DNA from: Argopecten irradians
Lineage: Eukaryota; Mollusca; Bivalvia; Pectinida; Pectinidae
Length of the DNA stretch: 64,000 nt
Direction: 5' to 3'
NCBI RefSeq assembly: GCF_041381155.1
Contig: NC_091134.1
Coordinates: forward strand, 10,758,755-10,822,754
The translations under genes and the position numbers were made by a program. The notes beneath the pieces are model-generated. The model was not told the origin of the DNA, made no database searches, and was given only the letters and a program-made list of their open reading frames with translations. How positions within the stretch are numbered: the first letter of the stretch is position 1; every line of letters begins with the position of its first letter. Below, piece by piece: positions 1-24,496 of the stretch.

Positions 1-951
1 AACACATTTTTGATTTTACTTATTAGTTTGAAAAAAAAATTACAAGTATCGATGTCACTATTTTTGAATTTCATCGATTTATATTTACATTTTCACTGCG
101 GCCCATCTAGATACATAACCTTACAAAAGGCAGTTGGCATTCACAAGATTATAAACTTCCAACCACTTAATATAAATTATGGCGTCATTATAATTGTGAT
201 GTCACAATTGCCGTATCAGCTTATTATGACGTCATTATCATTGTGACGTTATACTTGTGCCAGCGATCACGGAAGGTGGCTGTTCAAATAGCTGTTTTGT
301 CTTGGACGATAATGAATTATTTACTTATTATAATATCTTGGGATTTCATCATAAAATTGTAAATATAAGCAACGAATGTTCAAGATGAAGAGCTAACGCA
401 CTACGCGCTTCATGGAATTTGCCTCAGCCCAGTTGGCATTCATATTGGCTATGAATGCGGTCTGAAAGACGTTCAATGCTTAAATGAAAAAAGCAATTCA
501 AATTGTGTCATTTTTTGCATATTTTTTGATGATTTTTGTCTAAGAAACAATAGAGTGCAATCGTGAACAAAATTAACATTATTTCAGAATGTGTAAATAA
601 AAAAAAATGTTCAAGAATGCGTTCTGGTTTCTAGATGAAAAGCTTAGGAAAAGGGGCCAAAATAGACTTTTTTACAATTTCCTAGTTTTTACATATTAAG
701 GATGGTTCCCATAGCAACTACAGCTCCAATGATATATCACAGATGTACTTGGTATATTATGCCCATCAGTTTAATCACTTAATAACAGGTTTGAAAAAAT
801 GGATTTGAGGACAAAAAGTAAAATGCTGATATGTCCTATAATGGCAGATGATTCAACGAGTTTTTATTCACCTCCTGGCATAAATAAGGTTATTGAATAC
901 AAATATCAGCGTATGTCTACGTATTGTTGACAGACCCTGTCCCATTCTGGA

Positions 952-1089
952 CACAGGGACTTGTAACGTAGGTTGTGAGAAAGTCTGCTGTGTATACATG
1001 TGTACTATATACTATGTCCTTTTATATAGTATATAGTACACATGTATACACAGCAGACTTTCTCACAACCTACGTTACAAGTCCCTGTG
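952..1089. mobile_element. 138-bp palindromic MITE, left-arm copy
   Basis: Two perfectly complementary 64-bp arms surround a 10-base loop. The ends read CACAGGGAC and GTCCCTGTG. An 8-bp direct repeat, TCCAGAAT on one strand, lies on both sides, as expected for a hAT-type target duplication. It lies 24 bases past the stop codon of the minus-strand lectin gene, so probably in its 3' UTR. The mirror copy is at 23405-23542. Confidence 0.85.
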
Positions 1090-1113
1090 ATTCTGGATGG
1101 CAAACATGACATT

Positions 1114-2957
1114 TTATTTCCGTTCCTGACATGCGTAGAACATGAGATCTAAGCATTGTTGGTCATTTATCCCAAGAGGATGGAGGTACAAGTTTATACA
1201 TTGTTCTGAGTCGCAGTCCGGCTGTGCAGGATGGTACCAGATAGCACTAGGTATGTCAATGTTCTCATTGTTGAGCCATTTGGTTCCGTTTTCATTGTCA
1301 TAGCCTCCTAACCACCATTTATGAGTTTCTGGATCAAAAACAAATAACGCCATAATATATTAGACCTTCACATTGTAATAGTAAGCAGACTCGATTACGG
1401 TAGGTGCATGTTTGTAACGAGTATTTCTACAAATAAAACGAACGAGTCAGGATTGGCAACGCTAAATGACTCCCTGAAGGACCAACCTGAACTCATTTCA
1501 TCGATTTACGCTCTTCTTAAGAAGAGAAGTCTTCTCGGAAGATCTTCCCGCCTTTAGACGGAAGAGCTTCCAGAATTAGAAGAGCTACAACCGAGTGAAC
1601 GGAAGTTATATTCTGGAAGTAGAAGAGGGCAAATCGAGTTAAGCTCAGGGTACTGTCGGACACTTCCGCAATCTGTATTGTATAAACTATTTTGTCTAAA
1701 ATCTAAGATGAAAGCTAAGCAGCCATTTTGAATTCAGTTAGCCCAAAATGTTTTTGTCATAGGTAATTATCCTACTAGATCTAAGAAAAAATAAATGATA
1801 AAAAAATCAATCCAATATGGTCGAAAAACTTTCGCAGGACCAAACATCTTAAAGTGAAGAGTCGGGCAAAGAAAATCAGTCTCAATGCGTTCATTGGCCT
1901 TCCAAAAGTTCTCACATACTAATACGACGGTCAAGTTCTGCTTACGTTTCTCAGTTCTGACCATTAAAGTAAAGAAAGTTGAAAGCATTGAAAGCGAGGC
2001 TGCATGGAAATGTAACCACGGACATGAAAGCCGGGAGGACGTTTTAGGATTGCTATAGTTTAAATAAATTTCTTTGTACGCAGACAGATTTTGACGAGAG
2101 ATTTTATTTTTCTATTTCATAAGAAATTATACTGGATACATTCACACCATTTTTACCGACTTTAGCCATCCTTGCCCGACTGGTCACTTTAACTTTTGTG
2201 CCATTGAAAAGTTGGGAGTTAATGATAGGTGATAAAGCATTGTTTCCGCAGTATATTCACCGTAAAATAAAGCAAAAGCTGTTACACGGGGTTTATGTTC
2301 TGACATATTGTTTTTTTGTTTCTCTCCGGTTGCACGGGCAATGAGACATGTCTCTGTTACTAACCGGCGAATATATTCTTGTGAAGCCCTGTGACCGTTG
2401 CCCGAACTTTATCAACCGTGTCCACTATGAGGAGATGAGCCGCGTCTGCATAACACGCTTCTAAAGCCTGGAACCAGGTCTGAGCAATGGGGTACAGACG
2501 GATACACACACGGAAAGCGGGGTCGTACGTATACCCAGACAAACGACAAGTCTCTGTAACAACGAAAAAACGCAAAGTGAAAATAAAGATGAATAAGCCC
2601 CATTAAAGCAGCAGTAAGCAAATAATATGTAGCTAGTCCAATAGTTTATGAGATTTGTTTGTTTTTAATAGCTAGATTTTCCCCTAATATTGTTTGCGAT
2701 GTTTTGTAAATACTTACTTTTCCACATCTGAGTGTCTGATTGGCTGATAAAGTCATGTGACAGTCCATCGTACCCTCGGCACTCTTCTGTCGTTGTCGTG
2801 TAGGAATAGTCTAAACACGGCACATAATGTCTTTGGCAGGCTCGTGCACATTTAATAGCATTTGGTAGTTGTTTAATAAAGACAACACCATTCGTATAGA
2901 TAAGGTTCGCTTCCGTTATATCTTCCTCCCAGATCTTATTGATGTTTAAGCACACAG
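1114..2957 (-). CDS. PAN + C-type lectin gene, left copy (no signal exon)
   Basis: Three exons on the minus strand: 2718-2957 (PAN/apple-like), 2365-2553 (CTLD N half) and 1114-1328 (CTLD C half, ending TAA). All introns are phase 1 with GT/AG ends. The PAN exon has the cysteine pattern CARAC, VPC and EECRGYDG. The CTLD shows CRLSGYTYDP, TWFQALEAC, then WWLGGYD, a QPD motif, CINLYLH and YACQE. QPD is the galactose-type signature in C-type lectins, but the usual WND is replaced by IND, so calcium binding is uncertain. The product should be a secreted sugar-binding protein. The arm ends inside what would be intron 1, so the signal-peptide exon seen in the right copy is absent here. The PAN exon is in frame, unlike that of its twin. 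Whether it is transcribed is unknown. Confidence 0.8.
1487..1650. repeat. Short inverted-repeat element in lectin intron 3
   Basis: Ends CCTGAACTC and GAGCTCAGG-like sequences pair over about 25-30 bases with gaps, including ATCGATTTACGCTCTTCT against AGAAGAGGGCAAATCGA. The interior is rich in GAAG/CTTC palindromes. It looks like a small MITE; the mirror copy is at about 22845-23007. Confidence 0.45.
1849..2192. mobile_element. TTAA-flanked MITE, copy A
   Basis: Terminal inverted repeats TTAAAGTGAAGAGTCGGGC and GCCCGACTGGTCACTTTAA bound a 344-bp non-coding element inside intron 3 of the left lectin gene. Two more copies are at 6189-6531 and 22302-22645. TTAA at both edges suggests a piggyBac-like target preference; that is inference from the flanks only. 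Confidence 0.8.
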
Positions 2958-3278
2958 CTTCAAAATCAAAGTACATTCAAGATAGAATAATTGCATGTCA
3001 AACTCTATCTAAAAACACGCTTAGTAAAATGAATGAATAAGGACGCAAAAGTGAGATAAGAATTTTTCTCATAATTGATACCATGGATATTTTGGAAGTC
3101 TTTTATCAGAATACAATTATATCAAAACACGCACGCATGCTTAGGATATTGACATGGAACTTGAAGGACTCCACTGCAATTTGAATGATGCAGGGATCAC
3201 GCTTATAAAACATACTTTTGCTTCAATGTGTCGTTAGAGTGTGTAGTCTAAAAATAATGGGACAGATTGATGTTGCAG

Positions 3279-3505
3279 TGTCCAATGGCTGGTGGGTTGG
3301 TGGTTATGACTATGATAGTGGGCCCAGCGACGACTACAAATGGAGTAATGGAAACGGTATCCCTGCACCGCCCAATGATCTGTGGTTTCCTAATCAGCCG
3401 GACACTCAGAGAGAAAGGTGTGTCAATCTTTATCTATACCTGATCGGACTCTTTGATAACGATTGTCAAAATCAGTTGTATTACGCTTGTCAGGAAACTA
3501 TCTAA
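3279..3505 (+). pseudogene. Orphan C-type lectin last exon
   Basis: A plus-strand CTLD C-half exon begins after the acceptor TTGCAG and ends with TAA; AATAAA follows at 3597. It encodes WWVGGYDYDSG, a QPD motif, CVNLYLYL, NDCQ and YACQE, and enters in phase 1 like all the other last exons here. It is clearly a different paralogue from the two arm copies. No upstream exons of its own are present: the sequence directly upstream is the inverted-repeat arm, which carries a gene on the opposite strand. It is therefore a beheaded exon, and it could only be expressed by splicing to something outside this view. Confidence 0.8.
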
Positions 3506-6188
3506 AATTTACAAATAATCAATGTCTTTTCTCGGGAGTTCGCCCCCATACTTGTGTATTAGCAAGCATTTCCAACAGATTTGCTACCTTTATGTAAATA
3601 AAATACTTCGTTTTTCATTTGAATAATTGTTTTATTTATTTGAAAATGAACATGACAAAACTTGGCAGGATTCAAAATATGTATTTACAACCTTTCACCC
3701 AGTAAATTAAAGGACAATCTTCGAGTTCGCGCGCCATGGCTTGCAAAGTAGTTACGTCCCTTGCTTGGTCGCAACTTCCGCAGAAGCGATGTAAGTATTG
3801 AATACAAAGTAGCAATATCAAACATTAGTTACTTCCCCTAGACCGTACTTGTGATAAGTAGATATCTCACGATTAGTATACCATCTACATAACATGCTTC
3901 CTGGAAAAGAAATGAACGCAGTGATATTTCAAAACTGGTCGTGAAACATTTACATCAACCAATGTCATTGCACAATTATGATATAATCAGACATAAGTAT
4001 TATATAAAAGTGACAAGAAAATCAACGACACGTGAAAAATGAATCAAAATGACTATTGCAATATTCTCCAGAATTATCATCAAACATAGTTAACAAGTAT
4101 GTTCTGTATGGATAGAGTTTTACAATGCATAGACATCAACTCCACTCAAATGGAATCGAATGCATGACTTAACGTATATATGCTTTACTACATGTTTTGA
4201 CATGTGCCTCTGTTAAATGTCATAAGGATATATCAACAATGACTTGTATCACACTTCTGTTTTTCCATACACATTTACTAAGGTTAAATGGCACGTTCAT
4301 CAAAGTAGGAAACAGCTTTTTATTCTATATTATCCATATAACTGCTTAGCATGGCCATACATATAGCATATTGACAATTTTTGAGTAATAAGGTCAAACT
4401 TAGAGTTTTATATTCAATCATTCAAGATTTTTGTGCCATAACGATTAAACATCATTAATAAGTGTGGAAAATGAAGCATTAGTTATGACAGCTGGTATGA
4501 AATAATGTGAAGGCTGTGACATACGAATGTATGCATCTTAAGTCAAGTGAACTGGACGACGTAATATGTCCCTGAATATTTGTTGCGTAGGAATACTGTG
4601 TTTAATGTAGTGTTGTTTTCTACGAGAAATGGACCAGAGTATTGTTTTTTCTGGCCCTGTCCACATAAGCATCTGGTCCAACGCTCAGGTGATTAATTTT
4701 GGAGTTGGCTTTCTCCAACAATGTATGCATTCTGTCTCATTTGGTCCAGGATACCCATAGGCTTTGTTCAATTTCTTCGAATAGTCATGTTAACCATTCG
4801 GCCATCGCGGTCCCAAAGGTACTATGATAACTTGACCCAATAAATCGCCAAGTTGATTAACTACATTACGTTTGTTCAGAGGCGGATGATGTCGTTGATG
4901 TTTCGGCTTTATGTCTGGTTTCATGACGACCTTGTGTTTACCACAAATCTTGAAGATGATAATTCATTCTCGGTTGGTGTTAAGTGTTCTGGGGTTTCAA
5001 ACAGTGAATTGAATGAGCCGTGATGGTGATGATGTGCATAGCCAGTGGACGTCTGCACATTTTTTTACGATATCTGCAGAAAATTTGAAATATCATATCC
5101 CAACAAATATTCAAACTTAGTACAAACTTTCCCAGTTTTAAGAGGTACAACGGTTATTTTGTGCACATGTAACAAGCCATGGTTCGAAACAATACGTTTT
5201 CCAGACTGAGGACAAGTATGTGGATAAGGATTTGTATTTTGTGGCAAGAAGGAAGTAATATTATCGTGCACTTTCTTATCCAATGCAAAACGTTATTTGA
5301 AAAAAGGAACATCTGTCTGACAATGTCATAATCATGATGTAACAACGAACTATTTGACGTTTTCGGAACTGAATGATACATTTAAAGCTAGTGTTTATTA
5401 GGCACTATGCATGGACATTGCCAACGACATATGTTTATATCGGAAAAAATATCGGTATTTTGAGGAAATAAGACTATGTATGTAATTGTTGTATGATAAG
5501 GAGTCATGAGTTCAAAAAAAGAGGTACGTTTTTTCTACCTGAAATTTAAGTCATCAATATCCTAAATGTAAGAATTGCAGATAAGAATTATTTTGTGCCT
5601 GAAGGTTTCTATAGAGCATACTGGAATATTTACCTGAACTCTGGTATTTGTTTGTCTTACGATATTTCTGTTAACAAAAACGTTGTTCTGATATTTCATT
5701 ATCTGTTCCCTGCGTGGTCTTTGTACCCGTCTGTCTGTCTGTCTGTCTGTCCGGATTATGTTTTCATGTGATAACTTGAGAAAAATTGATGAATTATAAT
5801 TAAACTACACACGATGGGACTGAATTTGGAGTCTAAAGGTCACTGTTACTTAAATCAGATTGTTTCACTAATTTTAGTTTCCGGACGATATTTGAACATG
5901 AACAGAACTTGCTCAAACTTCATACAACGGTAACATAAGTAAATGATAATAATTTGCCATATATTTAGAAAATGTAATTGACGGCAGGGGACCTGTGTTG
6001 CTTGCAACACTTACTATTAGCTTGTTTATGTCTGCCCTATTAGTCTACGTAAACATGACAATGGTAGGTTGTTGATCAGGTGACAAACTGGATAGGTCGT
6101 ATATAGTCATGGAGTCCAACTAAACTATCTGCATTTGATTTTGTCTGTGAAAAGACATCCGATATGCTGTCTAAGTCTGAACCTAAAG
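3506..6188. other. Intergenic, no gene recognised
   Basis: AT-rich sequence without a convincing exon. It includes a (TCTG)n run near 5729-5750 and, at about 5755-6020, a degenerate copy of the 'gataacttgag' family that is tandem at 13.8-14.4 kb. Confidence 0.6.
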
Positions 6189-6531
6189 TTAAAGTGAATA
6201 GTCGGGCAAAGAAAACCAGTATAAATGCGTTCATTGGCCTTCCAAAAGTTCTCACATATTAATACGACGGTCAGGTTCTGCTTAGTTTCCCAGTTCTGAC
6301 CATTAAAGTAAAGAAAATGAAAGCATTGAAAGCGAGGCTGCGTGGAAATGTAACCACGGACATAGTGAGCCGGGAGGACGTTTTAGAATTTCCATACTTT
6401 AAATTAATTTCTTCGTACGCAGACAGATTTTGAGGAGAGATTTTATTTTTCCATTTCATAATAAATTATACTGGATACATTCACACCATTTTTACCGACT
6501 TAAGCCATCCTTGCCCGACTGTTCACTTTAA
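6189..6531. mobile_element. TTAA-flanked MITE, copy B
   Basis: Ends TTAAAGTGAATAGTCGGGC and GCCCGACTGTTCACTTTAA; the interior matches copies A and C with a few percent divergence. This single copy outside the inverted repeat shows that the element is mobile and not merely duplicated with the arms. Confidence 0.8.
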
Positions 6532-6814
6532 ACAAAACGTCAAACCATTTTGTTGTTTCCATATGTCTGGCTGCTTTGTAACTACTGCTCTTCTCATGAC
6601 GACGCCATCATGTCACACACAGTAAAACACGGTGATAATGAAACTCAGCGGACCTACGATATTAACTCGCGATAAAGAGTATATGAGAGATTACTCTTTA
6701 TCATGTAGTTGATGATATCAGATTAAATAGGCAGGGTGCAGCTTTACAATAGGAGAGATAGGACCACCGATATATTTTCAGGTCAGATACTAACGATTGC
6801 AGGATGTGATAAAA

Positions 6815-6905
6815 CAGTGGTATATTTACATACAAATCAGACAAAGACTAAGTATTTCTGACAGTGGTATATTTACATACAAATCAGACAAAGTCTAAGT
6901 ATTTC
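6815..6905. repeat. 47-bp direct duplication upstream of the receptor gene
   Basis: Two adjacent copies, starting at 6815 and 6862, of a unit beginning CAGTGGTATATTTACATAC differ by one base. They end about 135 bases before the GPR157-like start codon, so they could lie in its promoter or 5' UTR. Confidence 0.85.
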
Positions 6906-7041
6906 TATTGTCGCTGGGAACGCATGATATAATTTATATTGAAATGGCCTTCTAGAAGTGTCAGTGTCTAAATAAGTGTGATTAAGGACTTAACGATCGG
7001 TCATATCCCTACTCGTAACGCTGAGCATTTCACGGAGAAGG

Positions 7042-10000
7042 ATGGAGGAGTCTGTCGAGAGCACGACCATAATCGGTAACATCACCATGACACCGTCACG
7101 ACATACCCCTTTAGACCTCTCTAACTGGGTTGAAGCGCTGACACTATTCTTTACAAATTTGTCCATACTGTTTTCAATATTATTGGTGGTTATTTTCAGA
7201 TACATAGTACGAAGACCTGGAGATTTAGTTATCACTTTAGTTCAATGTCTTGCGGTGGCGGACGTGTTGTTTTGTATCGGAGAGGATATGGGAATGTTAT
7301 ATTACTCAAAATACCTTACTGTTGACGCGTTGTGCGTTACCCAGAGTTTCTTTACTACCTTCGCGGATCTAGTGTCATTTTGCTACGTTTTATATATCAT
7401 CATACATGGTTTCAGTGAAGAAACGTTGAACTCACAGTGGATGATGGGTAAAAACAAAATGGATATATCATATAATAGCTTGGCTTTTACCAGGTAAGCG
7501 AATTTGTCTGTTTTATTGACTTTTGTTGTATTGACTGTACTAAAAAGTATCTGCACCTTTTTTATGTAGTTACGATTTAAGACCTCGTTTAAAATAGTGA
7601 TTTTTATATGCCTATACATGTATATCACTTGCAGTTGAACATAACTTAAGTTACTAAAAAGTGTATTTTAAGGATGGCGGATGATGACAATAAGTGGATG
7701 GTGGTTTGGTAAGGGTGGCGGATGATTACAATAAGTGGATGGTGGTTTGGTAAGGGTGGCGGATGATTACAATAAGTGGATGGTGGTTTGGTAAGGGTGG
7801 CGGATGATTACAATTATTGGATGGTGGTTTGGTAAGGGTGGCGGATGATGACAATTGTTGGATGGTGGTTTGGTAAGGGTGGCGGATGATGACAATTGTT
7901 GGATGGTGGTTTGGTAAGGGTGGCAGATGATGACTATTGTTGGATGGTGGTTTGGTAAGGGTGGCAGATGATGACTATTGTTGGATGGTGGTTGGTAAGG
8001 GTGCGATGATATTGTTGGATGTGTTTGGTAAGGGTGGCAGATGATGACATTGTGATGTGTTGTAAGGGTGCAGATTGACTATTTTGGATGGTGGTTTGGT
8101 AAGGGTGGGATGATGACATTGTTGGATGGTGGTTTGGTAAGGGTGGCGGATGATGACAATTGTTGGATGTGGTTTGGTAAGGGTGGGAGATGATGACTAT
8201 TGTTGGATGGTGGTTTGGTAAGGGTGGCAGATGATGACTATTGTTGGATGGTGGTTTGGTAAGGGTGGGGGATGATGACAATTGTTGGATAGTGGTTTGG
8301 TAAGGGTGGGGAATGGTGACAATTGTTGGATAGTGGTTTGGTAAGGGTGGCAGATGATGACTATTGTTGGATGGTGGTTTGGTAAGGGTGGCGGATGATG
8401 ACTATTGTTGGATGGTGGTTTGGTAAGGGTGGCGGATGATGATAATTGTTGGATAGTGGTTTGGTAAGGGTTGGGGATGATGACTATTGTTGGATGGTGG
8501 TTTAGTTACGGTGGCGAATGATGACATTTTGTGGATGGCGGTTTAGTAAGGGTTGCGGATGATGACAATTGGTGGATTGTAGTTTGGTAAGTGTGGTGAA
8601 TAATGATATTTGGTTAATGGTTGTTTGGTAAGGGTGGTGGATAATGACATTTTGTGAATGGTGGTTGAGTAATTTTGATGAATGATGACAATTGTGGATG
8701 TGGTATGGTATAATGCCGGATGATGACATTTGGTGGATGGTGGTTTGGTCATGGTGGCGGATGATGACAATTGATGAATGGTTTTTGTGATGGTTCGGAT
8801 TGTTAAATATGGTTGATAGTGGTTGTTGATAATGGTGGATGGTGATATTTGATGATAGTACCGAAATCTGTAAATGATGGTTTGAATAGTGTTTGTCATT
8901 GTGTTTCAAAGTAGTAATTGCAGTCATGAGACAATGAAAATATACTTGATAGTTTTGGATGGTGCAGTTGGGTGGTGTTACTGATGTTCAGAGTACTGTA
9001 ATAAATTAGTTTGAAATAATATTATGATAATCTACAAGCGGTAGTCAGAATCGTGAAACGAATGTTATTGAATATTTATTCTATATCAAATTTGACGAGG
9101 TTTTGGCTTCTTGCATATTTGAATAAATTCAGTTTCGGGTATTGTTTAGTAAGTGATTCACATTGCAGGGGTTATTACAGTATCTGCAGTAGCTACTGGG
9201 GCCCTTGGCGATGCCTTGTCACGATTTGGGTCCTGGTGTTGGATCGATGAAGATACACTGACCGATAAACAGCGCCTTCTATGGATGTTGTTTACCAAAC
9301 AGATCTGGGAAATTCTTATCTACATTCTCTCTGGCACTCTCATTGTCATCTCCTTTTGGTTAAAGAAAAGGAAGGAACGAAAGAAAAGAATCCAAAGAAA
9401 ATTCCGTCATTCGGTAAAATATTTATAATTAGAGTGGGTAAAAACTTGAAATGGGTCATTTTTGACAAGATTAAATATGCTAGGCCTCATCATAGATATA
9501 TCTTATCAAACATATTTATAATGTTATAATGTTATAATGCTATCTTTTTTTATAATGAAAATTTTGCTACATACCCTCATTAACATACACTGATACGTCA
9601 AATCTCGTTTTTATATATATATATATATCTCTTTCGGTATTAGTTTTAATATAATTTTAAGCTTAGACCACGGATTCGTTAGTCTGTTGACACTAATCTG
9701 CGATTCCAAATCATGATTGTTTCTGTTATCACTTCAAGTAAACAATTGTAATGTCATATTTCATAATCAATGTTATTCCATTACAGTATAGTACAAACAA
9801 CCTATCCTATAGTGAGAGCAGCCAACTTACAACTAACAATGCCGATAATAAACGAAAAAAGCCGAAGTTCAATGTGATGATTTGGATGCTGTTCTATTTC
9901 TACCTAACAAGGATCTGGGGTACTACACGCAACTTTGTTACCATCATCGGTCTGGTTGTTGGGTCGAGAGTTCCCGGGTTTACACCACTGGATGAACACT

Positions 10001-10197
10001 TCTTCATACACGCGCAGTCTGTCGGTGACTCGCTGCAAGGAACAATTAACTTCGTCATGTTTTGTTTTTTGGATGACAGTGTTTGGAAACATTTCAAAAG
10101 ATCAGTTAAAAAGAGATTCTGTTGTGTAACTGAAGACAATAAGAGTGAGGAAACCGAACCAATAATTGATACAAATCTAATGCGGGCTATTAAATGA
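7042..10197 (+). CDS. GPR157-like seven-transmembrane receptor
   Basis: Exon 1 is 7042-7447 (donor G|GTAAAA, phase 1), exon 2 is 9169-9413 (phase 0 exit) and exon 3 is 9787-10197 (TGA). The product is about 353 residues. The N-terminus has an NIT glycosylation site. TM1-TM3 lie in exon 1 (FTNLSILFSILLVV; LVQCLAVADVLFCI; FFTTFADLVSFCYV). Exon 2 carries VITVSAV, the family-like GSWCWID and LLWMLFTKQIWEIL. Exon 3 carries TM6 (WMLFYFYLTRIWGTTRNF) and TM7 (QSVGDSLQGTINFVMFC), then a short basic tail. This matches GPR157, an orphan receptor related to cAMP-type/family B receptors; the ligand is unknown. Compared with remembered GPR157, about 20 residues around early TM4 are missing. Either a small exon between 7448 and 9168 was not recognised, or the donor is wrong (another GT lies at 7494). 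A second, partial copy is at 52075-53514. Confidence 0.83.
7672..8860. repeat. 41-bp minisatellite in receptor intron 1
   Basis: About 25-28 head-to-tail units of roughly 41 bases, with core GGATGGTGGTTTGGTAAGGG. The units are nearly identical from 7672 to about 8500, with a patch of short deletions at about 7990-8110, and they decay steadily towards 8860. The reading frames across it are by-products of the repeat and not genes. Confidence 0.95.
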
Positions 10198-10277
10198 AAG
10201 TAATAGAGTAAAAGAACTTATTTTGTTAGCTTCTTATCATAAAATGTGATTAGATTTTAGCATTTTAACACCAAACC

Positions 10278-11470
10278 TGATGACCCTGTAAGACATTATC
10301 GACTGATTTGTTGTATGACTTTGTAAGACATAATCGACTGATTTGTTGTATGACTTTGTAAGACATTATCGACTGATTTGTTGTATGACTTTGTAAGACA
10401 TTATCGACTGATTTGTTGTATGACTGTGTAAGACATTATCGACTGATTTGTTGTATGACTTTGTAAGACATTATCGACTGATTTGTTGTATGACTTTGTA
10501 AGACATTATCGACTGATTTGTTGTATGACTTTGTAAGACATTATCGACTGATTTGTTGTATTACTGTGTAAGACATTATCGACTGATTTGTTGTATGACT
10601 GTGTAAGACATTATCGACTATGATTTGTTGTATGACTGTGTAAGACATTATCGACTGATTTGTTGTATGACTGTGTAAGACATTATCGACTGATTTGTTG
10701 GTATTACTGTGTAAGACATTATCGACTGATTTGTTGTATGACAGTGTAAGACATTATCGACTAATTTGTTGTATGACTTTGTAAGACATTATCGACTGAT
10801 TTGTTGTATGACAGTGTAAGACATTATCGACTGATTTGTTGTATTACTGTGTAAGACATTATCGACTGATTTGTTGTATGACTGTGTAAGACATTATCGA
10901 CTGATTTGTTGTATGACTTTGTAAGACATTATCGACTGATTTGTTGTATGACTTTGTAAGATTTGTTGTATGACAGTGTAAGACATTATCGACTGATTTG
11001 TTGTATGACTTTGTAAGACATTATCGACTGATTTGTTGTATGACAGTGTAAGACAATATCGACTGATTTGTTGTATGACTTTTTAAGACATTATCGACTG
11101 ATTTGTTGTATGACTGTGTAAGACATTATCGACTGATTTTTTGTATGACTGTGTAAGACATAGTCGACTAATTTGTTGTATGACAGTGTAAGACACTATC
11201 GACTGATTTGTTGTATGACTGTGTAAGACACTATCGACTGATTTATTGTATGACTTTGTAAGACATTATCGACTCATTTGTTGTATAACAGTGTAAGACA
11301 CTATCGACTGATTTGTTGTATGACTGTGTAAGACATAATCGACTGATTTGTTGTATGACTGTGTAAGACATTATCGACTGATTTGTTGTATAACAGTGTA
11401 AGACACTATCGACTGATTTGTTGTATGACTGTGTAAGACATTATCAACTGATTTGTTGTATAGCTGATTA
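10278..11470. repeat. 35-bp minisatellite just past the receptor stop codon
   Basis: About 33-34 units of 35 bases with core AGACATTATCGACTGATTTG. Units differ mainly at one site (GACTTTG, GACTGTG or GACAGTG), so subtypes can be followed along the array; one unit near 10960 is shortened. The array starts about 80 bases after the TGA at 10197, so it may be transcribed in the 3' UTR. Confidence 0.95.
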
Positions 11471-12160: not shown

Positions 12161-12164
12161 GAAG

Positions 12165-12800: not shown

Positions 12801-12945
12801 AAGAGTTGTCTCCCTTGCGGGTAGGTATCCATTGTGATGTCATTATTTTGTGTGCGAGATTTTCTCTTAAAAGTATGATGTTATGCCTGCAAACAAACGA
12901 TATCACAACCAATACCTACCTGCTAGGGCAGATAACTCTGTAATT
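12801..12945. mobile_element. Palindromic MITE, copy A of a two-copy family
   Basis: AGAGTTGTCTCCC and TGCGGGTAGGTATCCATTG at the left pair with CAACCAATACCTACCTGCTA and AGATAACTCT at the right, leaving a short unpaired centre. The same family is at 54868-55053, and a half copy is at about 33689-33745. Confidence 0.7.
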
Positions 12946-13359
12946 TGCAAATACGGGATCATTAGTCAATATCTGTACTATAAAGTAATGACTGTGCTGT
13001 TATATTACAAAAATATATTTTAGTTAATGAGCATTTAGAGGATTATATGTAGATTGACATGCATGTTTTCCTGTTATTATGGTATTATTATATGTTTTAT
13101 CTATGAATGTATTTTAAAAAAAATTCAATAATAATAATTTATCTGAAATAAAATACACTATTATTTAGTTGTCACTTCTGTTATTTTTCAGAAATAAGAG
13201 CTATTCCAGTAAAACATCTTTCACAAACCCCTGGACGCCAGGTTTGCTTAGAGATTAAAACAACAATTGTTAAAGCAGTTTTTTTTTTATTCCTTTTAAG
13301 CCAGAAGTTACCAAAGATGATTTTAATAAAATAGCTCTTGTTAAGCACCACTTGATTTT

Positions 13360-13715
13360 TAGATGCTTCAAATCCCTTAAGTGAGACCCCTTCAAATCCC
13401 CCTAAGGATACCACTTCAAATCCACTGGTGTCCTCATTTACATATTTTAGACGTTTAAGATCCCCTTTGCGCGACCACTTTAATACCTCTTAGCTGGACC
13501 ACTGCAAACCCCCTTATATTAGTTGGGCTACTTCAAATCCCCTTATCGAAATCACTGGAAAACCCCGAAGCTGGACCACTGCAAATCCCCTTAAGTGACC
13601 CACTTCAAATCTCCTTAGCAGAACCACTTCAAATCCACTGGTAACCTCATTTAAATATTTTAAACACTTAAAATCCCCTTAAGTGACCCACTTCAAATCC
13701 ACTTAAACTACTGTT
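13360..13715. repeat. Degenerate short tandem repeat
   Basis: Irregular units of about 20-24 bases around CCACTTCAAATCCCCTTA recur roughly a dozen times, some of them separated by a longer block containing CTCATTTAAATATTTTA. Confidence 0.7.
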
Positions 13716-13798
13716 ATTACGCTTGCAGCATACATTTTACATTCTTAGGTACCTTGACCATAGGTCATAATGACCTATTGTGATAGTCTTTTGTCCGT

Positions 13799-14420
13799 TT
13801 TTTTTGTGAACACGATAACTTGAGTAAATATGTACCAACTTAATGAGTAAATGAGTTTGAAAATCAGTTTGATTTGACTGTAATTTACGGAGTTATTGCC
13901 CTTTGCACTAATAATTATAACTGGACTTTGTTTATACCATAACTTGAGGAAGTATGCACTGAGCTTAATGAAACTTTGTGTGTAGCTAACATTGGATAGA
14001 TATCGATCGTTATTTACAGAGTTATTGCCCTTTGCAATAACAATTAATGAACATTGTGAACACTATAACTTGAATATATATGCACAAAGTGTAATGAAAC
14101 GTTATGTGTAGACTAACATTAGAAAGATCTCATAGGAGTGTGAAAATCAGCTTGATTCGACTGTTAGTTACGGAGTTATCGCCCTTTGCACTAACAATTA
14201 TTACTGGATCTTGTTAACATGATAACTTGCGTAATGACCAACTTCGGAGAGATCTTCGACAAGTTCGACCACAATAAATATGCACAGATCTTAATGAAAC
14301 TTTAAATGTAGACTAACATTAGAAAGATCTCGGACGAGTTCGAAAATCAGCTTGATTCGACTGTAACTGACGGAGTTATTGCCCTTTGCAATCATAATTA
14401 TTGTTATTGGACTTTGTTTT
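13799..14420. repeat. Tandem array of about 130-200 bp units ('gataacttgag' family)
   Basis: Four diverged units starting near 13807, 13931, 14058 and 14214 share GATAACTTGAGTAAATATG, CTAACATTAGAAAGATCTC, CAGCTTGATTCGACTG and GGAGTTATTGCCCTTTGCA. This family is familiar from bivalve genomes (from memory); no coding function is apparent. Confidence 0.8.
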
Positions 14421-16910
14421 TTAATGGAATCTATCCATTTATTTCTTATTTTTTATTTGTTATACCTACTTAAATTATTTTTCTCTCTTTCTCAATAACT
14501 ATTGGCATATGTATAAAATTTGTCTCTTTCTAGAATCTAATAATTTCTTGCCAGTCACGGAAAAGTACATACATTTATGAAAAAAATTGTAATCGGCCAA
14601 TTTACTCCTTTCATTACAACGGTAATGGTATTGCTATTAGTACCAACTTGATCAGGAGCCTTTGTGTTTCAGTACTTTCAGTACTTTGATTATTACTTGG
14701 ATAGCAGCCAAGGTCTATATTGGTTACCAAATAGGGAACTGTGAGTGTGAACATCTACAGACAATGAATTCAGTGTCTATATTGAATCACCAATACAAAT
14801 GAACTTTGATTTTATTGTTATGTCATGACCACAATTTCTTATGTAGAACCAAATGCGATACAATTAAAAAAAGCAAAAAGCCATTTGGAATCCTTTTTTT
14901 GTGTCCTGCAAAGTTAACTATAACAACGATCCGAAAACAACCAAACAATATACTTTATTATGTTCATCAAATATTCTCTATCATAGAACACTAAATACTA
15001 GGGTTGTGGGCTATTGACGCATGCTTAAAAGAAACTATTCAATTATTTTATGTCATATAGAACAAAAAAGGTTAACATAAACAGAATGCCGCCAGCACTG
15101 TCTGTAGACCCCGGTAAATTGTCACACCATTGATATATATATATATATTCATCCTTGATCCACTCCTGGATCATGTCATAGCAATACTGAAGGATCTGTG
15201 TGCGGCAACAAATGAGACAGGTAGTTTGGTGCATATCAAAATGTAAAATAACTGTAAACGGTATGGCTTTGATTTGAAGTTGGGCGGCGTTTGTAAATCT
15301 TCAAAGGAAGCTTCTATTGGACATGTGATTGGTCCGTTTGTTTTCCTGGGCCCAGTTTCACGAACATTCCTTAAAAAGGGAAACGATACTCTAAATTTAA
15401 TAAATTAATTAAGATTTCAGGGAGGCTCCTTAAATATTTATTGACTTTCAAGTCCTGTAGACATACAATAATTTATCATATTCAAGTTCGTTCTGGACAT
15501 CTTTCATTTACCGAAACCACCTCATACACCGAATACCGCTATACGGTGTCACATTTATCATTGATTGTTTAAATAAAAAGTGTTATATATACAACCACAA
15601 TATTTCATCCGTGTTTACATTCAGCGACGTTGTCGTATTGTGGCTTACCTAGAAATTGTTTTAATGTTTGTTTATTGCAATCAATAATGCATTTTCCAAT
15701 AAAGCAATTACGGCTTTTCACTAAAAGTTATACAAATCGTATATATTTGTTATGATATTAATTTCCTTTACAAATGTATTTTGAGTAGCTTATTGATAGT
15801 CTGTATATATCATCTCTAAATAATTCATTAATTGAATGGCTCTGGTAATTGAAATAATAGGATATGTATGCATGGTTTATGATATATGACTATTAAAGTT
15901 TGAGACGTTAATACAGTACTATATATATATATATAGCACTGTTGATCAGAGTCAGAAGGTAACCAACTCGGTATTGAAGCCGGCTGTTCAGACAATATTC
16001 CTCATCAGTGGTCGGTGGGTATGATTAGAGCGGGGTATTAAGACACGTGATAGGTAAGATGTGCTGATTTTTGTTTTCCTTCCATGCATCCATCCATGTC
16101 AGGAGGTTTGTTTTTAATATTTAGTATTTCTGTAGATTACTCAGCTTTTATATATTTCATTAATCCTTCTACATACATTGTAGTTTAGAATAAGTTTTGT
16201 TTACATATGTATTCACATTTTAAAAACAGTTAGGAGCTATTTTCATTTACTCGTTTACAAAACTGTCATTCCTCATACAAAAATTCCGTATTACTATATA
16301 GGGAATCAGATGTAAGCAATTCCATTAAGACAAGACAATATGTTCACCGATTCTGCCACATGCAATCCATGGGAACGGTTTTTGGTATAATTTTTCCTAT
16401 TTTGTTTGTATTCTTTGTTAACCTCACCATAATTATGCTCGGTTTTAGTGGGTTTTTTTTTTACATTCGACTACAGTATTATTCCTATCTGCTATTTTAA
16501 AAAAATCAGTCAACAATAGGGTGACCAGGTCACTGAAAGGTCAATCTTAAATCTTTTATATATATATTTTTCTGTTAAGGCGTATTTAATACTTGACAAT
16601 TTAGAAGTACTGTTTCTCGAAGTTTTTCGTAGTTTTTTGCATAAAAATTTATCTCAGCCAGTGATTGCCTATGTGTTCCATGAAGTGGTTTCAGCTTTTT
16701 AATATTATAAATGAATTTTACTTGTTATGTTGAGGTCTTTAATACCCAATATCAAATCACCTAAACAGAAAAGAGATTTCTTGTTTTCAAGGTTTTTAAA
16801 CAGCTGTGAATCTTATTTAATGTTTCCTTCCATAGTGCATAACCATCTACAATATTTCTATGGAAGAGCCCTAGAGTGTTTACTTTTGTCTTTGGCCAGT
16901 TTATAGATCT
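14421..16910. other. Non-coding stretch with minor repeats
   Basis: No gene recognised. About 15255-15345 is a short element whose reverse-complement relative lies at about 40855-40930 (shared GGGCG, CTTCAAAGGAA and TGTGATTGGT blocks). Short TA runs occur near 15136 and 15920. Confidence 0.5.
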
Positions 16911-16911
16911 G

Positions 16912-17028
16912 GCGTGTATTTCCATCTACCAAGGTACATAGATGACGGGGGCGTGTATTTCCATCTACCAAGGTACATAGATGACGGGGGCGTGTATTTC
17001 CATCTACCAAGGTGCATAGATGACGGGT
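16912..17028. repeat. Three 39-bp tandem units
   Basis: Three nearly identical copies of a unit starting GCGTGTATTTCCATCTACC. The repeat number is divisible by three, so the reading frame stays open, but nothing suggests that it is coding. Confidence 0.9.
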
Positions 17029-17061
17029 TTTTTTTCGAAGTTGACTTTAGATCCAGATATT

Positions 17062-18168
17062 TTAAAGGGACAATTCAATCTAAGAGAACATTAAAATTTG
17101 TACATATATCGGAAAAAACCCAGCTCTAATGGAAATTAGATCAGTCGGTTTTTCTGTGATATGCTAGAAAAGCCCATGGTGGTGAAATGCGTTTGAAACT
17201 TTCAAACTCGCTCGCTGTCCGCCATTACACATTGTGGTCGAACATCTTGAATGCCGAACCATGTCCCTTGCTCGTAGAGTAATGCAACATTTGTCTAGAA
17301 CCACTCAAATCGCTCTGACAGTAAAGGTTTAACCTTATAAGGTAAATTGCCTGCTATAAACTCGGTTTTAGGGGGGGCGACACCTCAGCTGGGTTAAGCA
17401 GTCATTATGTTTAAAACGTACGTGACTTTGGCTCGGGTATGGGTACAGAGTACATATTGTACCTGCTTAATCGTATTGATTTTTTGTTTTGTTTGATTAA
17501 TTAACGTCCCATTAACAGCCAGGGTCATGTAAGGACGGCCTCCCATGTATGCTGTGTGTTGCGTGTATGTTGTGCGAGGTGAGAGTTTTGGGAGACTGCG
17601 GTATATTCATGTTGTGTCTTCTTGTATAGTGGAACTGTTGCCCTTTTTATAGTGCTATGTCACTGAAGCATGCCGCCGAAGACACCAAGCAACACACCCC
17701 ACCCGGTCACATTATACTGACAACGGGCGAACCAGTCGTCCCACTCCCTGTATGCCGAGCGATAAGCAGGAGCAGAAACTACCACTTTTATAGACTTTGG
17801 TGTGTCTCGGCCAGGGGACAGAACCCAGAGCCTTCCTCACAGGGGTGAACGCTCAACTCAAGGCCAAAAGTGAGGCGGTGCCAAGGGAGGCATTAGGAAA
17901 GATAAAGTCAGTTAGGAAGAAGAAAAAAGATAAGATCCTAAATTTAGTCGCCTTTTACGATCATGCAATAGGGGCAGCAGGTATAATTCTAACGCCCTAC
18001 CCAACGATTTGTAATTACAACGGTATCATCTGAAATACTTAACAATAACATGGAATTTGTCAATATATTGTGTTAAATGTTTCATAAGAAATGTAGATCA
18101 ATATATTTATGCCATATTTTGCTTCTTGGTTATGTAAAAGAATTAGCCTGAGTGAATTGTCCCTTTAA
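17062..18168. mobile_element. TTAA-ended MITE split by a SINE-like insertion
   Basis: The ends are a perfect 16-bp inverted pair, TTAAAGGGACAATTCA and TGAATTGTCCCTTTAA, with TTAA at each edge. The non-coding interior is interrupted at about 17494-18003 by a copy of the 0.5 kb repeat that also occurs at 18966-19497. Without the insertion the element would be about 600 bp. Confidence 0.75.
17494..18003 (-). mobile_element. 0.5-kb SINE-like element, copy 1
   Basis: About 96% alike to 18966-19497. Read on the minus strand, it starts GGTAGGGCGTTAGAATT, contains a box-B-like GGGTTCTGTCCCCTGGCC and ends with the block ACATGACCCTGGCTGTTAAT followed by an AAAC-type tail. The box-B-like motif and the tail suggest a short retroposed element; no protein is encoded. 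Confidence 0.7.
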
Positions 18169-18477
18169 TATACATATTTATAACTTTAAAAGACTCAGTA
18201 ATTGAAGGTTCATGTTTTAATAATAATTGCATATCGTCATAAAACATATTTTTCTTCGATTTTATTTTTCCACATCTTCAAATTGTAGTAAAATACGCAA
18301 TAACGTCCTGCACTACATTTTACATGTTGAATATATTATAATCATTATGGAATACATATAAGATTTATTGACGGAGGAAAAAGAACGCAATTTAAGATCA
18401 TACCGAAGATTTCACCAAATGTAAAATTCACATACCTTCGTCTATTCTTCACAAGATTTTTTTTTTATATTATACAA

Positions 18478-18612
18478 ATATAGCATTTTGATGAGGTCGA
18501 TACATGGTTATATTGACCAAAGAAAAAATATTGACCGAGGACGTAGTCCGAGGTCGATATTTTTTCTGTGGTCGATATAACCATGTATTGACAGAAATCA
18601 AAATGCTATAAT
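18478..18612. mobile_element. Foldback (hairpin) element
   Basis: Imperfect arms of about 60 bases: TATAGCATTTTGAT, GATACATGGTTATATTGACC and AATATTGACC pair with GGTCGATATT, GGTCGATATAACCATGTATT and ATCAAAATGCTATA around a short centre, GAGGACGTAGTCCGAG. No coding content. Confidence 0.85.
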
Positions 18613-18965
18613 TGTTTTATTATTTTTCTGGATTTTTTACATTTTGAAATGAGTGTGAAACTAAATAAGCACGCATTGTAAATTCTGCTTCGTTAAGACA
18701 GTTACAATTTTATAATTTTGTAACAAGTTTAGTTTAAAAAACCATATGAAAACAGTATCAATTGATGCACTTCACGCTTTTATTACATGCACTCGGTGCA
18801 TGCGTGCTTGTAAATTGCATACATGTACATGTACTCCATTATACCTGTAGCTCCATGTCGGGCACAGTCAGTTAAATGTATAGTTTGTTCTCCGTTGAAA
18901 TAATCCACTTCGACTCCAAACATACATTAAAAGATTGTGATTGACATGAAGATAATTCTCTTATG

Positions 18966-19497
18966 CTTAGTTTGTTTGTTTGTTTGTTTGATTTATTAAC
19001 GTCCTATTAACAGCTATGGTCATGTAAGGACGGCCTCCCATGTATGCGGTGTGTTGCGTGTATGTTGTGCGAGGTGAGTGTACTGGGAGACTGCGGTATG
19101 TTCGTGTTGTGTCTTCTTGTTTAGTGGAACTGTTGCCCTGTTTATAGTGCTATATCACTGATGCATGCCGCCGAAGATACCGAGCAACACACCCCACCCG
19201 GTCACATTATACTGACAACGGGCGAACCAGTCGTCCCACTCCATGTATGCTGAACGCTAAGCAGGAGCAGAAACTACCACTTTTATAGACTTTGGTGTGT
19301 CTCGGCCAGGGGACAGAACCCAGAGCCTTCCTCACAGGGGCGAACGCTCAAATCAAGGCCAAAAGTGAGGCGGTGCCAAGGGAGGCATTAGGAAAGATAA
19401 AGTCAGTTAGGAAGAAGAGAAAAGATAAGATCCTAAATTTAGTCGCCTTTTAAGATCATGCAATAGGGGCAGCAGGTACAATTCTAACGCCCTACCT
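18966..19497 (-). mobile_element. 0.5-kb SINE-like element, copy 2
   Basis: Same family and orientation as 17494-18003. Here the tail is a clean (TTTG)4 on the plus strand, that is (CAAA)n at the 3' end of the minus-strand element, which supports target-primed insertion. Confidence 0.75.
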
Positions 19498-19738
19498 GCA
19501 GGGCCATTATGCTTAGTACTCCATTCCGTAAAATAAAAATCGTATACATACAGTAGGATTAGCCTAGGCCTACTAATGTTGTAACTAGCCCAGGTGGAAT
19601 TTAAAAAATAAACATCAAATGTAATCACTATCCAATAGCTCCAGATGCTTAATGAATGTTATTCGATTATTTCCTACTATCCTACCGTGTTTATGTTGAA
19701 AATTTAAAAGTTTAAATTGTAGTCATCAGCTGGAAGTC

Positions 19739-20278
19739 TAGACTGGTTCCCTTCCCTTAGTTCTCTACTCTCCGCCAGGCTGCGCTCCGCTCACTAGGGA
19801 CCGGTAGCGGGTAACCATGATGATTTTTATTTGATTGGTCAATCTACATATCCGGTTCGCTGGTATCACTTTTTTTAGACGTGGGAAACCCCTTTACGCA
19901 CGAAGCGACGGATCTTATAAACTGGTTCCCGCCTCAGTTACCTCCCTTGCGTACGCTTCACTGAGGACCGGTAGCGAGTAGCCATCTTGAGTGAGAATCT
20001 TGAAGACTAAATAATTTATTTGAACGATATATAAACAAAATTAAAAAAGATCTTAAGTTTTGAAATCATTTCGTGCTAACAGAGTTTAGTGTGTTCATAG
20101 GAACGACGTTAATGACGGTATTTTCTCCTAACGGAAGTAGCCGTCTCCATGATGACATATCATGCGCAGAAATGATGCTCACTACTCTGGAGTTGGAATT
20201 CTCACTCAAGATGGCTACTCGCTACCGGTCCTCAGTGAAGCGTACGCAAGGGAGGTAACTGAGGCGGGAACAAGTCTA
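19739..20278. mobile_element. Foldback element with 9-bp target duplication
   Basis: CTGGAAGTC stands directly outside both ends (19730-19738 and 20279-20287). Near-identical 80-90 bp arms lie at about 19918-20004 and 20188-20275 (CCTCCCTTGCGTACGCTTCA against its complement). A diverged third arm-like block at 19741-19830 shares ACTGGTTCCC and GACCGGTAGCG. A 9-bp duplication and long arms fit a MULE or foldback type; no transposase is present. Confidence 0.8.
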
Positions 20279-21098
20279 CTGGAAGTCATCTTTGATAGAA
20301 ACCGAAACAATCAACGTCGTCTGTCACATTTTGTGGTTACGCTTCAAACTCGGGTCATCAAAGCGTTTGTTTCAAAGCGCCAGGAACACGAAGCGTTTTG
20401 GTAACGTAGATGATAACGTTATCTAAAAATAACCGTGCAATATACTTTTTCTATAAACTACTTCCGGAAAAATCGTGCAATATAGTTTTTTATCGGTGAT
20501 CATGTGGCGTGTTTTTGACCAATGAGAAGTGACAAAAAATCCAGAAAAATAATAAATATATATAAAATTTCACTCCAGACGAAAAACAATAGCATGGAAA
20601 ATGTTCTTATCAGCTTTAAATATTGTGTATTGTTTGCCATCTTTTTGCTTCTGATTTTGATGGTCAGAACGTCAGAACGTACTGACAAACATATCTCTGG
20701 CGAATTTGCATTGAATCCCATCATTGTGAAGCTAGGTGTTCCGGAGCGACTGAAATGTACAACAGTAGCAGTGTACTCAGCATATTTACATGGAACACAT
20801 CGAACAGGTCAAACGCCAGTCTTGAAGCACAATTTAATCTAGGTTACCAGTGCTTAGCTTTTGACGCTGTATGTACAAAATACATAACTCGGAGCAAGTA
20901 AAATATCAACGTGATTGAAATGATTGAAATTAATTTATAGAACAAAAGTATTACATAATTAATTTTGATCATTCTATTATCTAGTAATTTCTTTATTTTT
21001 GTGTTTCTTTAGTTTGCTTCTGAATGGTCTTTCTGTGAGTAAAATTTCTATGGGTCTACCATAACCGCCAGTGTCTGTCTTCTGAATACAGATGAACA
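20279..21098. other. Non-coding, upstream of the right lectin copy
   Basis: Contains an open frame of about 100 codons at 20522-20842 without recognisable motifs, and a segment near 20655 (TTTGATGGTCAGAACGTCAG) resembling the MITE family of 6189-6531. No clear TATA box. Confidence 0.4.
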
Positions 21099-23380
21099 AT
21101 GAGGACTACTACATTTGCTGGTCTGATGCTGTTTTTATTTACACAGATATCAACAGGTGAGATATATAATCATCTAAATATGTGTATACCTTCGGCCGGA
21201 TCGTTACACATATTTTGATCGATATATCTGTCCCATTATTTTTAGACTACACACTCTAACGACACATTGAAGCAAAAGTATGTTTTATAAGCGTGATCCC
21301 TGCATCATTCAAATTGCAGTCGAGTCCTTCAAGTTCCATGTCAATATCCTAAGCATGCGTGCGTATTTTGATATAACTGTATTCTGATAAAAGACTTCCA
21401 AAATATCCATGGTATCAATTATGAGAAAAATTCTTATCTCACTTTTGCGTCCGTATTCATTCATTTTACTAAGCGTGTTTTTAGATAGAGTTTGACATGC
21501 AATTATTCTATCTTGAATGTACTTTGATTTTGAAGCTGTGTGCTTAAACATCAATAAGATCTGGGAGGAAGATATAACGGAAGCGAACCTTATCTATACG
21601 AATGGTGTTGTCTTTATTAAACAACTACCAAATGCTATTAAATGTGCACGAGCCTGCCAAAGACATTATGTGCCGTGTTTTAGACTATTCCTACACGACA
21701 ACGACAGAAGAGTGCCGAGGGTACGATGGACTGTCACATGACTTTATCAGCCAATCAGACACTCAGATGTGGAAAAGTAAGTATTTACAAAACATCGCAA
21801 ACAATATTAGGGGAAAATCTAGCTATTAAAAACAAACAAATCTCATAAACTATTGGACTAGCTACATATTATTTGCTTACTGCTGCTTTAATGGGGCTTA
21901 TTCATCTTTATTTTCACTTTGCGTTTTTTCGTTGTTACAGAGACTTGTCGTTTGTCTGGGTATACGTACGACCCCGCTTTCCGTGTGTGTATCCGTCTGT
22001 ACCCCATTGCTCAGACCTGGTTCCAGGCTTTAGAAGCGTGTTATGCAGACGCGGCTCATCTCCTCATAGTGGACACGGTTGATAAAGTTCGGGCAACGGT
22101 CACAGGGCTTCACAAGAATATATTCGCCGGTTAGTAACAGAGACATGTCTCATTGCCCGTGCAACCGGAGAGAAACAAAAAAACAATATGTCAGAACATA
22201 AACCCCGTGTAACAGCTTTTGCTTTATTTTACGGTGAATATACTGCGGAAACAAAGTTTTATCACCTATCATTAACTCCCAACTTTTCAATGGCACAAAA
22301 GTTAAAGTGACCAGTCGGGCAAGGATGGCTAAAGTCGGTAAAAATGGTGTGAATGTATCCAGTATAATTTCTTATGAAATAGAAAAATAAAATCTCTCGT
22401 CAAAATCTGTCTGCGTACAAAGAAATTTATTTAAACTATAGCAATCCTAAAACGTCCTCCCGGCTTTCATGTCCGTGGTTACATTTCCATGCAGCCTCGC
22501 TTTCAATGCTTTCAACTTTCTTTACTTTAATGGTCAGAACTGAGAAACGTAAGCAGAACTTGACCGTCGTATTAGTATGTGAGAACTTTTGGAAGGCCAA
22601 TGAACGCATTGAGACTGATTTTCTTTGCCCGACTCTTCACTTTAAGATGTTTGGTCCTGCGAAAGTTTTTCGACCATATTGGATTGATTTTTTTATCATT
22701 TATTTTTTCTTAGATCTAGTAGGATAATTACCTATGACAAAAACATTTTGGGCTAACTGAATTCAAAATGGCTGCTTAGCTTTCATCTTAGATTTTAGAC
22801 AAAATAGTTTATACAATACAGATTGCGGAAGTGTCCGACAGTACCCTGAGCTTAACTCGATTTGCCCTCTTCTACTTCCAGAATATAACTTCCGTTCACT
22901 CGGTTGTAGCTCTTCTAATTCTGGAAGCTCTTCCGTCTAAAGGCGGGAAGATCTTCCGAGAAGACTTCTCTTCTTAAGAAGAGCGTAAATCGATGAATTG
23001 AGTTCAGGTTGGTCCTTCAGGGAGTCATTTAGCGTTGCCAATCCTGACTCGTTCGTTTTATTTGTAGAAATACTCGTTACAAACATGCACCTACCGTAAT
23101 CGAGTCTGCTTACTATTACAATGTGAAGGTCTAATATATTATGGCGTTATTTGTTTTTGATCCAGAAACTCATAAATGGTGGTTAGGAGGCTATGACAAT
23201 GAAAACGGAACCAAATGGCTCAACAATGAGAACATTGACATACCTAGTGCTATCTGGTACCATCCTGCACAGCCGGACTGCGACTCAGAACAATGTATAA
23301 ACTTGTACCTCCATCCTCTTGGGATAAATGACCAACAATGCTTAGATCTCATGTTCTACGCATGTCAGGAACGGAAATAA
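21099..23380 (+). CDS. PAN + C-type lectin gene, right copy (with signal exon)
   Basis: Exons: 21099-21156 (signal peptide MRTTTFAGLMLFLFTQIST, donor G|GTGAG), 21536-21776 (PAN), 21941-22129 (CTLD N half) and 23166-23380 (CTLD C half, TAA); AATAAA at 23626. All introns are phase 1. The intended product is about 233 residues: signal, PAN/apple-like module, one CTLD with QPD and IND in place of WND, so a secreted lectin. Compared with the left arm, the PAN exon has one extra T in a T-run near 21677 (four instead of three), which shifts the frame after HYVPC; exon length 241 instead of 240. This is either a true loss of function or a homopolymer error. The gene runs divergently from its left-arm twin; the signal exon lies just outside the repeated arm. 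Confidence 0.78.
22302..22645. mobile_element. TTAA-flanked MITE, copy C
   Basis: Mirror image of copy A, in intron 3 of the right lectin gene. It shows that the insertion happened before the arms were duplicated. Confidence 0.8.
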
Positions 23381-23404
23381 AATGTCATGTTTGCCATCCA
23401 GAAT

Positions 23405-23542
23405 CACAGGGACTTGTAACGTAGGTTGTGAGAAAGTCTGCTGTGTATACATGTGTACTATATACTATATAAAAGGACATAGTATATAGTACACATGTAT
23501 ACACAGCAGACTTTCTCACAACCTACGTTACAAGTCCCTGTG
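23405..23542. mobile_element. 138-bp palindromic MITE, right-arm copy
   Basis: Perfect 64-bp arms, 10-base loop, and TCCAGAAT on both sides. It starts 24 bases after the lectin stop codon and before the AATAAA at 23626, so it should be transcribed in the 3' UTR and fold into a long double-stranded stem. Confidence 0.87.
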
Positions 23543-24496
23543 TCCAGAATGGGACAGGGTCTGTCAACAATACGTAGACATACGCTGATATTTGTATTCA
23601 ATAACCTTATTTATGCCAGGAGGTGAATAAAAAACTCGTTGAATCATCTGCCATTATAGGACATGTCAGCATTTTACTTTTTGTCCTCAAATCCATTTTT
23701 TCAAACCTGTTATTAAGTGATTAAACTGATGGGCATAATATACCAAGTACATCTGTGATATATCATTGGAGCTGTAGTTGCTATGGGAACCATCTTAAAT
23801 ATGTAAAAACTAGGAAATTGTAAAAAAGTCTATTTTGGCCCCTTTTCCAAAGCTTTTCATCTAGAAACCAGAACGCATTCTTAAACATTTTTTTTTATTT
23901 ACACATTCTAAAATAATGTTAATTTTGTTCACGATTGCGCTCTATTGTCTCTTAGACAAAAATCATCAAAAAATATGCAAAAAATGACACAATTTGACTT
24001 GCTTTTTTCATTTAAGCATTGAACGTCTTTCAGCCCGCATTCATAGCCAATATGAATGCCAACTGGGCTGAGGCAAATTCCATGAAGCGCGTAGTGCGTT
24101 AGCCCTTCATCTTGAACATTCGTTGCTTATATTTACAATTTTATGATGAAATCCCAAGATATTATAATAAGTAAATAATTCATTATCGTCCAAGACAAAA
24201 CAGCTATTTGAACAGCCACCTTCCGTGATCGCTGGCACAAGTATAACGTCACAATGATAATGACGTCATAATAAGCTGACACGGCAATTGTGACATCACA
24301 ATTATAATGACGCCATAATTTATATTAAGTGGTTGGAAGTTCATAGTCTTGTGAATGCCAACTGCCTTTTGTAAGGTTATGTATCTAGATGGGCCGCAGT
24401 GAAAATGTAAATATAAATCGATGAAATTCAAAAATAGTGACATCGATACTTGTAATTTTTTTTTTCAAACTAATAAGTAAAATAAAAAAATGTGTT

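Follow-up and report, generated by a model that had tools for sequence, protein, structure and literature searches.

Mirrored lectin gene copies in the Argopecten irradians genome suggest a reversed 24-kb piece with a leftover duplicate end

In Argopecten irradians, two mirrored copies of a lectin gene flank an 18-kb spacer on contig C1. The present analysis suggests that they represent a reversed 24-kb piece with a leftover duplicate end and not an unusual inverted duplication in the animal. Specifically, the pieces of genes found at the joins combined with a pattern of base errors confined to one of the two copies lead us to this reading, and as its cause we favor, with a probability of roughly 0.6, an assembly artifact in which a small contig was placed backwards and its overlap left unmerged. 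The window discussed here is the whole stretch of 64,000 nucleotides, C1:10758755-10822754; the genome comprises 845,758,899 bases distributed over 1508 contigs. The sequence examined comprised the window plus 60 kb upstream and 20 kb downstream (144 kb), and negative coordinates denote positions upstream of window base 1.

The initial annotation of this DNA described 3.27-kb arms that are ~99% alike. Positions 1-3267 and 21226-24496 are indeed reverse complements, with 99.2% identity over 3271 columns, but window base 1 proved to be the edge of the window and not the end of an arm: once the upstream DNA is added, arm homology extends to -3144 and 27420, and the true arms are 6.4 and 6.2 kb long. 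The left arm, D, occupies -3144..3267 on the + strand (1..3267 within the window, with its outer end at C1:10755610) and measures 6412 nt, while the right arm, D′, is the reverse complement of D, occupies 21226..27420 on the - strand, and measures 6195 nt. D′ is noisy from ~25200 outward and unalignable to D at ~26950-27195. Between the arms lies the spacer, S, of 17958 nt. The homology is interrupted by a 254-nt stretch present only on the left, a 121-nt unit present only on the right, and a non-aligning part near the outer end. The homology stops sharply at the inner junctions, 3267|3268 and 21225|21226, and no N occurs in the 144000 bases around the locus or in the other genomic loci examined. 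Among the matches scored (the best 40 of 4533 candidates), these two are the only full copies of the arm in the genome. A MITE-like repeat in the left arm (1849..2192) has a mirror copy at 22302-22645, a third copy at 6189-6531, and further copies on many contigs, and a palindrome in the left arm (952-1089) is likewise mirrored at 23405-23542. Because they occupy mirror positions, the MITEs are older than the two arm copies, in agreement with the earlier proposal that the mobile-element insertions predate the duplication.

In each arm, a PAN exon is accompanied by two CTLD exons, and the two sets point apart, as first described. In contrast, the “receptor gene” said to lie between them consists of two long hydrophobic exons that gave no Pfam match, whether singly or joined, and the receptor label is not borne out by a family match. 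The spacer also holds tandem arrays at 7669-8859 and 10280-11462, with respective periods of ~41 and 35 nt as judged from self-match offsets, the former sitting between the two hydrophobic exons. In addition, it contains a direct repeat (17476-18001 and 18972-19496) of ~526 nt and 94.7% identity, with related pieces near a lectin gene on C8. A genome search with the middle of the spacer returned repeat copies, nearly all at 64-92% identity.

The two copies of the lectin gene in the arms, gene 1, are not equivalent. The right copy, on the + strand, combines a signal-peptide exon (21099..21156; 19 codons with a phase-1 donor, GTGAGA), which flanks only the right arm, within the spacer, with a PAN exon (21536..21776) in which one extra base at 21681 shifts the frame, followed by the first and second CTLD halves (21934..22131 and 23160..23377). 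The frameshift may be one further base-call error of the kind described below. The left copy, on the - strand, has an open PAN exon (2718..2957, with boundaries assigned visually by transferring splice signals to the left arm), a first CTLD half (2363..2560), and a second CTLD half with its acceptor present (1117..1335), and no candidate signal-peptide exon was found for it within 2 kb. The PAN domain scores 20.1 bits against PAN_1, just below the curated cut-off of 21.4, and the two CTLD halves of gene 1 joined score 25.7 bits against Lectin_C, above the cut-off of 22.6. The signal-peptide exon lies 437 nt before the PAN exon and is the sole candidate within 2 kb; the scan gave 31 candidates in 144 kb on both strands, and a chance match within 2 kb (~0.2) is not rare. 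The exon is nevertheless credible because gene 2, described below, and the C8 paralogue have candidate signal exons of matching phase at similar distances, 499 and 465 nt before their PAN exons, respectively; all of these, including that of gene 1, end in T in the same phase. For gene 4, a fitting signal-peptide candidate lies ~2.4 kb upstream.

Just inside the left junction lies an orphan second CTLD half (3279..3502, + strand). It is open, has an acceptor AG at 3277-3278, and is separated from the junction by 11 nt of intron (3268-3278). By itself it scores 17.8 bits against Lectin_C, below the cut-off of 22.6, and a search of the 60 kb to the left at E 0.001 turned up no partner exons. Beyond the right arm, on the - strand, gene 2 shows the complementary deficit: it has a candidate signal-peptide exon (32518..32577), a PAN exon (31836..32078), and a first CTLD half (31140..31337) followed by a donor, GTAAGT, and its second and last CTLD half was not found between 27420 and 31140. 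When 3268-27420 is turned round, gene 1 gains a signal exon on the side of the left flank, A, and gene 2, in the right flank, B, gains a last exon, with strand and phase right in both cases. Because turning it round completes both genes, this block, which we call X (3268..27420; S plus D′, 24153 nt), is most simply read as lying upside-down relative to both flanks, whatever the cause. With X turned and one of the duplicates removed, the gene order becomes normal.

Assignment of the orphan exon to gene 2 is suggested by its position, strand, and phase and by the absence of such an exon elsewhere, with weak support from trees. Protein identities are in partial agreement: the C8 gene is the closest to both the first CTLD half of gene 2 (69%) and the orphan exon (58%), but the last exon of the C8 gene is as near to those of gene 4 (59%) and gene 3 (57%) as to the orphan. 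In the trees, the first CTLD half of gene 2 clusters with its C8 counterpart with a support of 71, and the nodes for the last exons have values of 38-70. For the PAN exon of gene 2, gene 1 and the C8 gene come out equally close (59%).

The second line of evidence comes from the differences between the arms. The divergence near 1% that had been noted holds for the 3271 columns within the window, but it is very uneven along the arm and rises outward. The inner stretch 861-2811 contains 3 substitutions in 1951 columns, while -114..860 contains 17 in 975 columns, 12 of them transitions, and looks like real variation. Beyond -114, both substitutions and short indels climb outward, with substitutions reaching 23 and 19 per 300 nt in the last two bins. 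The indels are one-sided: between -2316 and 3267, the right arm is the one with extra bases in 39 of the 40 indels of ≤5 nt (two-sided binomial p = 7e-11), and 18 of the 27 single-base extras repeat a neighboring base. By comparison, the last 456 columns of the left arm, at junction 3267|3268, show 4 substitutions and 1 indel, with no excess of errors.

These differences could be polarized with a multi-copy repeat, E, located at 25295..26379 (- strand) in the right arm and mirrored at ~-1981..-1045 in the left, which is present in both arms and, among the matches listed, in at least dozens of places elsewhere in the genome. The polarizing set comprised eight other genomic copies (L056-L063), five listed in both arm searches and three in the left-arm search only. 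Relative to these, the right arm has 15 private insertion events (10 of a single base) and 15 private substitutions, compared with 0 and 1, respectively, in the left; 10 of the 15 substitutions fall into two tight clusters, and the events are thus fewer than the counts. Against each copy taken individually, the right arm shows 18-22 insertion events and the left arm 2-6, and among the top-listed copies the right-arm repeat exceeds 15 of 19 in length and the left-arm repeat 6 of 14. Where single-molecule reads are poorly corrected, one copy alone acquires private changes rich in insertions, whereas evolution would load both arms alike, and for this reason we read the right-arm changes as errors. 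The excess of sequencing-type errors is confined to the right arm, and, judged from these alignments, the outward rise in divergence would be mostly base-call error in that copy. Gene conversion was also considered as a cause of the gradient and was dropped, because the comparison with the copies of E reveals changes private to the right arm. The differences peak in the bins nearest the outer edge of the right arm, next to B. Since reads running from B into D′ should have corrected that edge if the two were truly joined, 27420 appears to be the end of an assembled piece. The left end of B, within the gene 2 intron, is formed by another multi-copy repeat of ~670 nt (27420..28088), which is longer, by 4 to 38 nt, than all 20 of the copies taken from the best 40 scored and which may also contain noise. 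It is followed in the same intron by a 1137-nt segment (28088-29224) that matches C4:20738080-20739215 with 0 mismatches and one gap and that has no third copy among the scored matches.

The anatomy of the locus, its two split genes, and the one-sided spectrum of errors with its gradient are all directly visible, and they suggest a cause in the assembly rather than in the animal. The true order would probably be A–D–S–B, with gene 1 in D and gene 2 in B, such that two PAN-CTLD genes on the same strand would flank S. Block X, in which D′ would be a second reading of D, behaves as a separate contig of 24153 nt might. Its D′ end would overlap the end of the neighboring A–D, and this overlap would have been left unmerged, owing to the other haplotype, to poorly corrected reads, or to both. 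If the contig was then laid in reverse, which could easily happen in scaffolding to a piece as small as 24 kb, two mirror arms around an 18-kb spacer would result, the left copy of gene 1 would be without its first exon, and gene 2 would be parted from its last. Also in favor of the artifact, a neighboring stretch of C1 has a collinear copy of 96-99% identity on C11, as a misplaced haplotype would. Of the three options first put forward, a young inverted duplication, arms kept alike by gene conversion, and two haplotypes joined by the assembler, the last fits best when recast as an unmerged overlap and a reversed contig, and gene conversion is not needed.

Several observations weigh against the artifact. 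Scaffold joins normally carry Ns, and a gap would be expected at the joins of X, where there is none; if 27420 is the end of a piece, joins in this assembly presumably need not carry them. Junction 3267|3268 is clean on both sides and the orphan exon beside it is open. The 17 substitutions in -114..860 and the 254-nt left-only stretch also fit a true old duplicate, true near-identical duplicates can also end up unevenly corrected, the C11 copy may have arisen by true segmental duplication, and the link between the orphan exon and gene 2 draws weak support from the trees. In favor of the artifact, published experience with long-read assemblies includes false duplications, produced by divergent haplotypes or located at contig boundaries, with an increase in error k-mers, as well as inverted mis-joins and, as an occasional exception, wrong gap filling in place of a gap; in one case, the better copy drew all of the reads used for polishing (PMC8081667, PMC9516828). 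The present locus resembles the false duplications in those accounts in having a few kilobases of duplicate that terminate a contig-sized piece, one copy of lower consensus quality, allele-like differences, and false gene copies. It departs from them in that such duplications are usually in the same orientation with a gap between, while here the piece is reversed and its joins are without N (PMC8081667, PMC9516828).

An unlikely, although not negligible, alternative is a real inversion, in which end joining after staggered single-strand breaks flanking D, and after a further break within the intron of gene 2, inverted S and duplicated D in one event. The outcome, which we consider improbable to the same degree, would be one daughter of gene 1 without first exon and promoter and a gene 2 cut in two. 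This model predicts the same anatomy in a single step and agrees with the sharp junctions and the absence of Ns. It also has a precedent: in Drosophila mojavensis, inverted duplications of 1 to 7 kb accompany two of seven inversions and are attributed to staggered breaks, and one such duplication contains a gene minus its first exon (PMC3355041). As in the inversions 2h and 2q described there, inverted duplicates of formerly single-copy DNA flank a segment that here appears reversed relative to the ancestral order, and one duplicate is without a first exon. However, for 2h and 2q a relative with the uninverted order proves the inversion, whereas here the ancestral order comes from the split genes and not from a relative, and the errors in the right arm point to a contig end (PMC3355041). 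The real inversion also leaves unexplained why private insertions occur on one arm only and why they peak at its outer edge. No contig with the uninverted order appeared among the best-scored matches, for which ~40 candidates were scored per search and were filled by repeats. Correspondingly, we think it doubtful that a fairly recent staggered-break inversion in a lectin cluster generated, in one event, a copy without a first exon, a second lectin gene cut apart, and 6-kb mirror arms that could keep flipping the 18-kb spacer between haplotypes.

Far less probable is a tandem duplication D–D′ with a later inversion that turned over D′–S. Turning X round does give a direct tandem D–D′, but this route needs two events, one with a breakpoint exactly at the D|D′ border; it leaves the one-sided noise unexplained, and no other copy of the junction regions was present among the best-scored matches. 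Least credible of all is an inserted inverted copy of D with S in its original orientation and the arms kept alike by gene conversion, which would suit the near-identical inner stretch beside a divergent one (3 substitutions in 1951 columns and 17 in 975) but makes a coincidence of three features, namely the orphan exon, the exon that gene 2 lacks, and the signal exon on one side, and faces an outer divergence that is mostly right-arm error.

If the assembly artifact is the correct reading, it has made one false copy of a lectin gene and broken two genuine genes, and this in a type of gene family in which copy number is often interpreted as expansion. If instead the rearrangement is real, it provides, in an organism other than Drosophila, a compact example of an inversion that both duplicates and breaks genes in one step. 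Moreover, genes that are completed by turning a block round and one-sided insertions polarized on repeat copies are two signs that can be checked without reads.

Other genes that combine PAN and C-type lectin domains are present in this genome at C8:24989211-24992434, in the right flank on C1 (window 67573-71046), and at C13:4676759-4680952. They have the same order as genes 1 and 2, a PAN exon followed by two CTLD half exons, with phase-1 split codons where checked. In contrast to genes 1 and 2, which are broken up, these genes have a fuller exon set in place; the proteins are 40-70% identical. A third lectin gene within the window (49065-51652, + strand) has an in-frame TAG in its last CTLD exon, and no PAN exon was found near it. 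The collinear copy of the right flank of C1 covers window 68160 to ~80000 (C1:10826915-10838754) and spans at least C11:477011-496648. It has ~7.6 kb extra, its left end is located between the first and second CTLD halves of gene 4, and it is either a misplaced haplotype or a real segmental duplication. In the left flank, a 987-nt tandem duplication of 98.3% identity lies at -45954 to -43981. Finally, window 56510-60151 contains a Ty3/gypsy-like retroelement in three overlapping frames, with the integrase upstream of reverse transcriptase and RNase H, an integrase-first order that we take to recall the Gmr1-like group.
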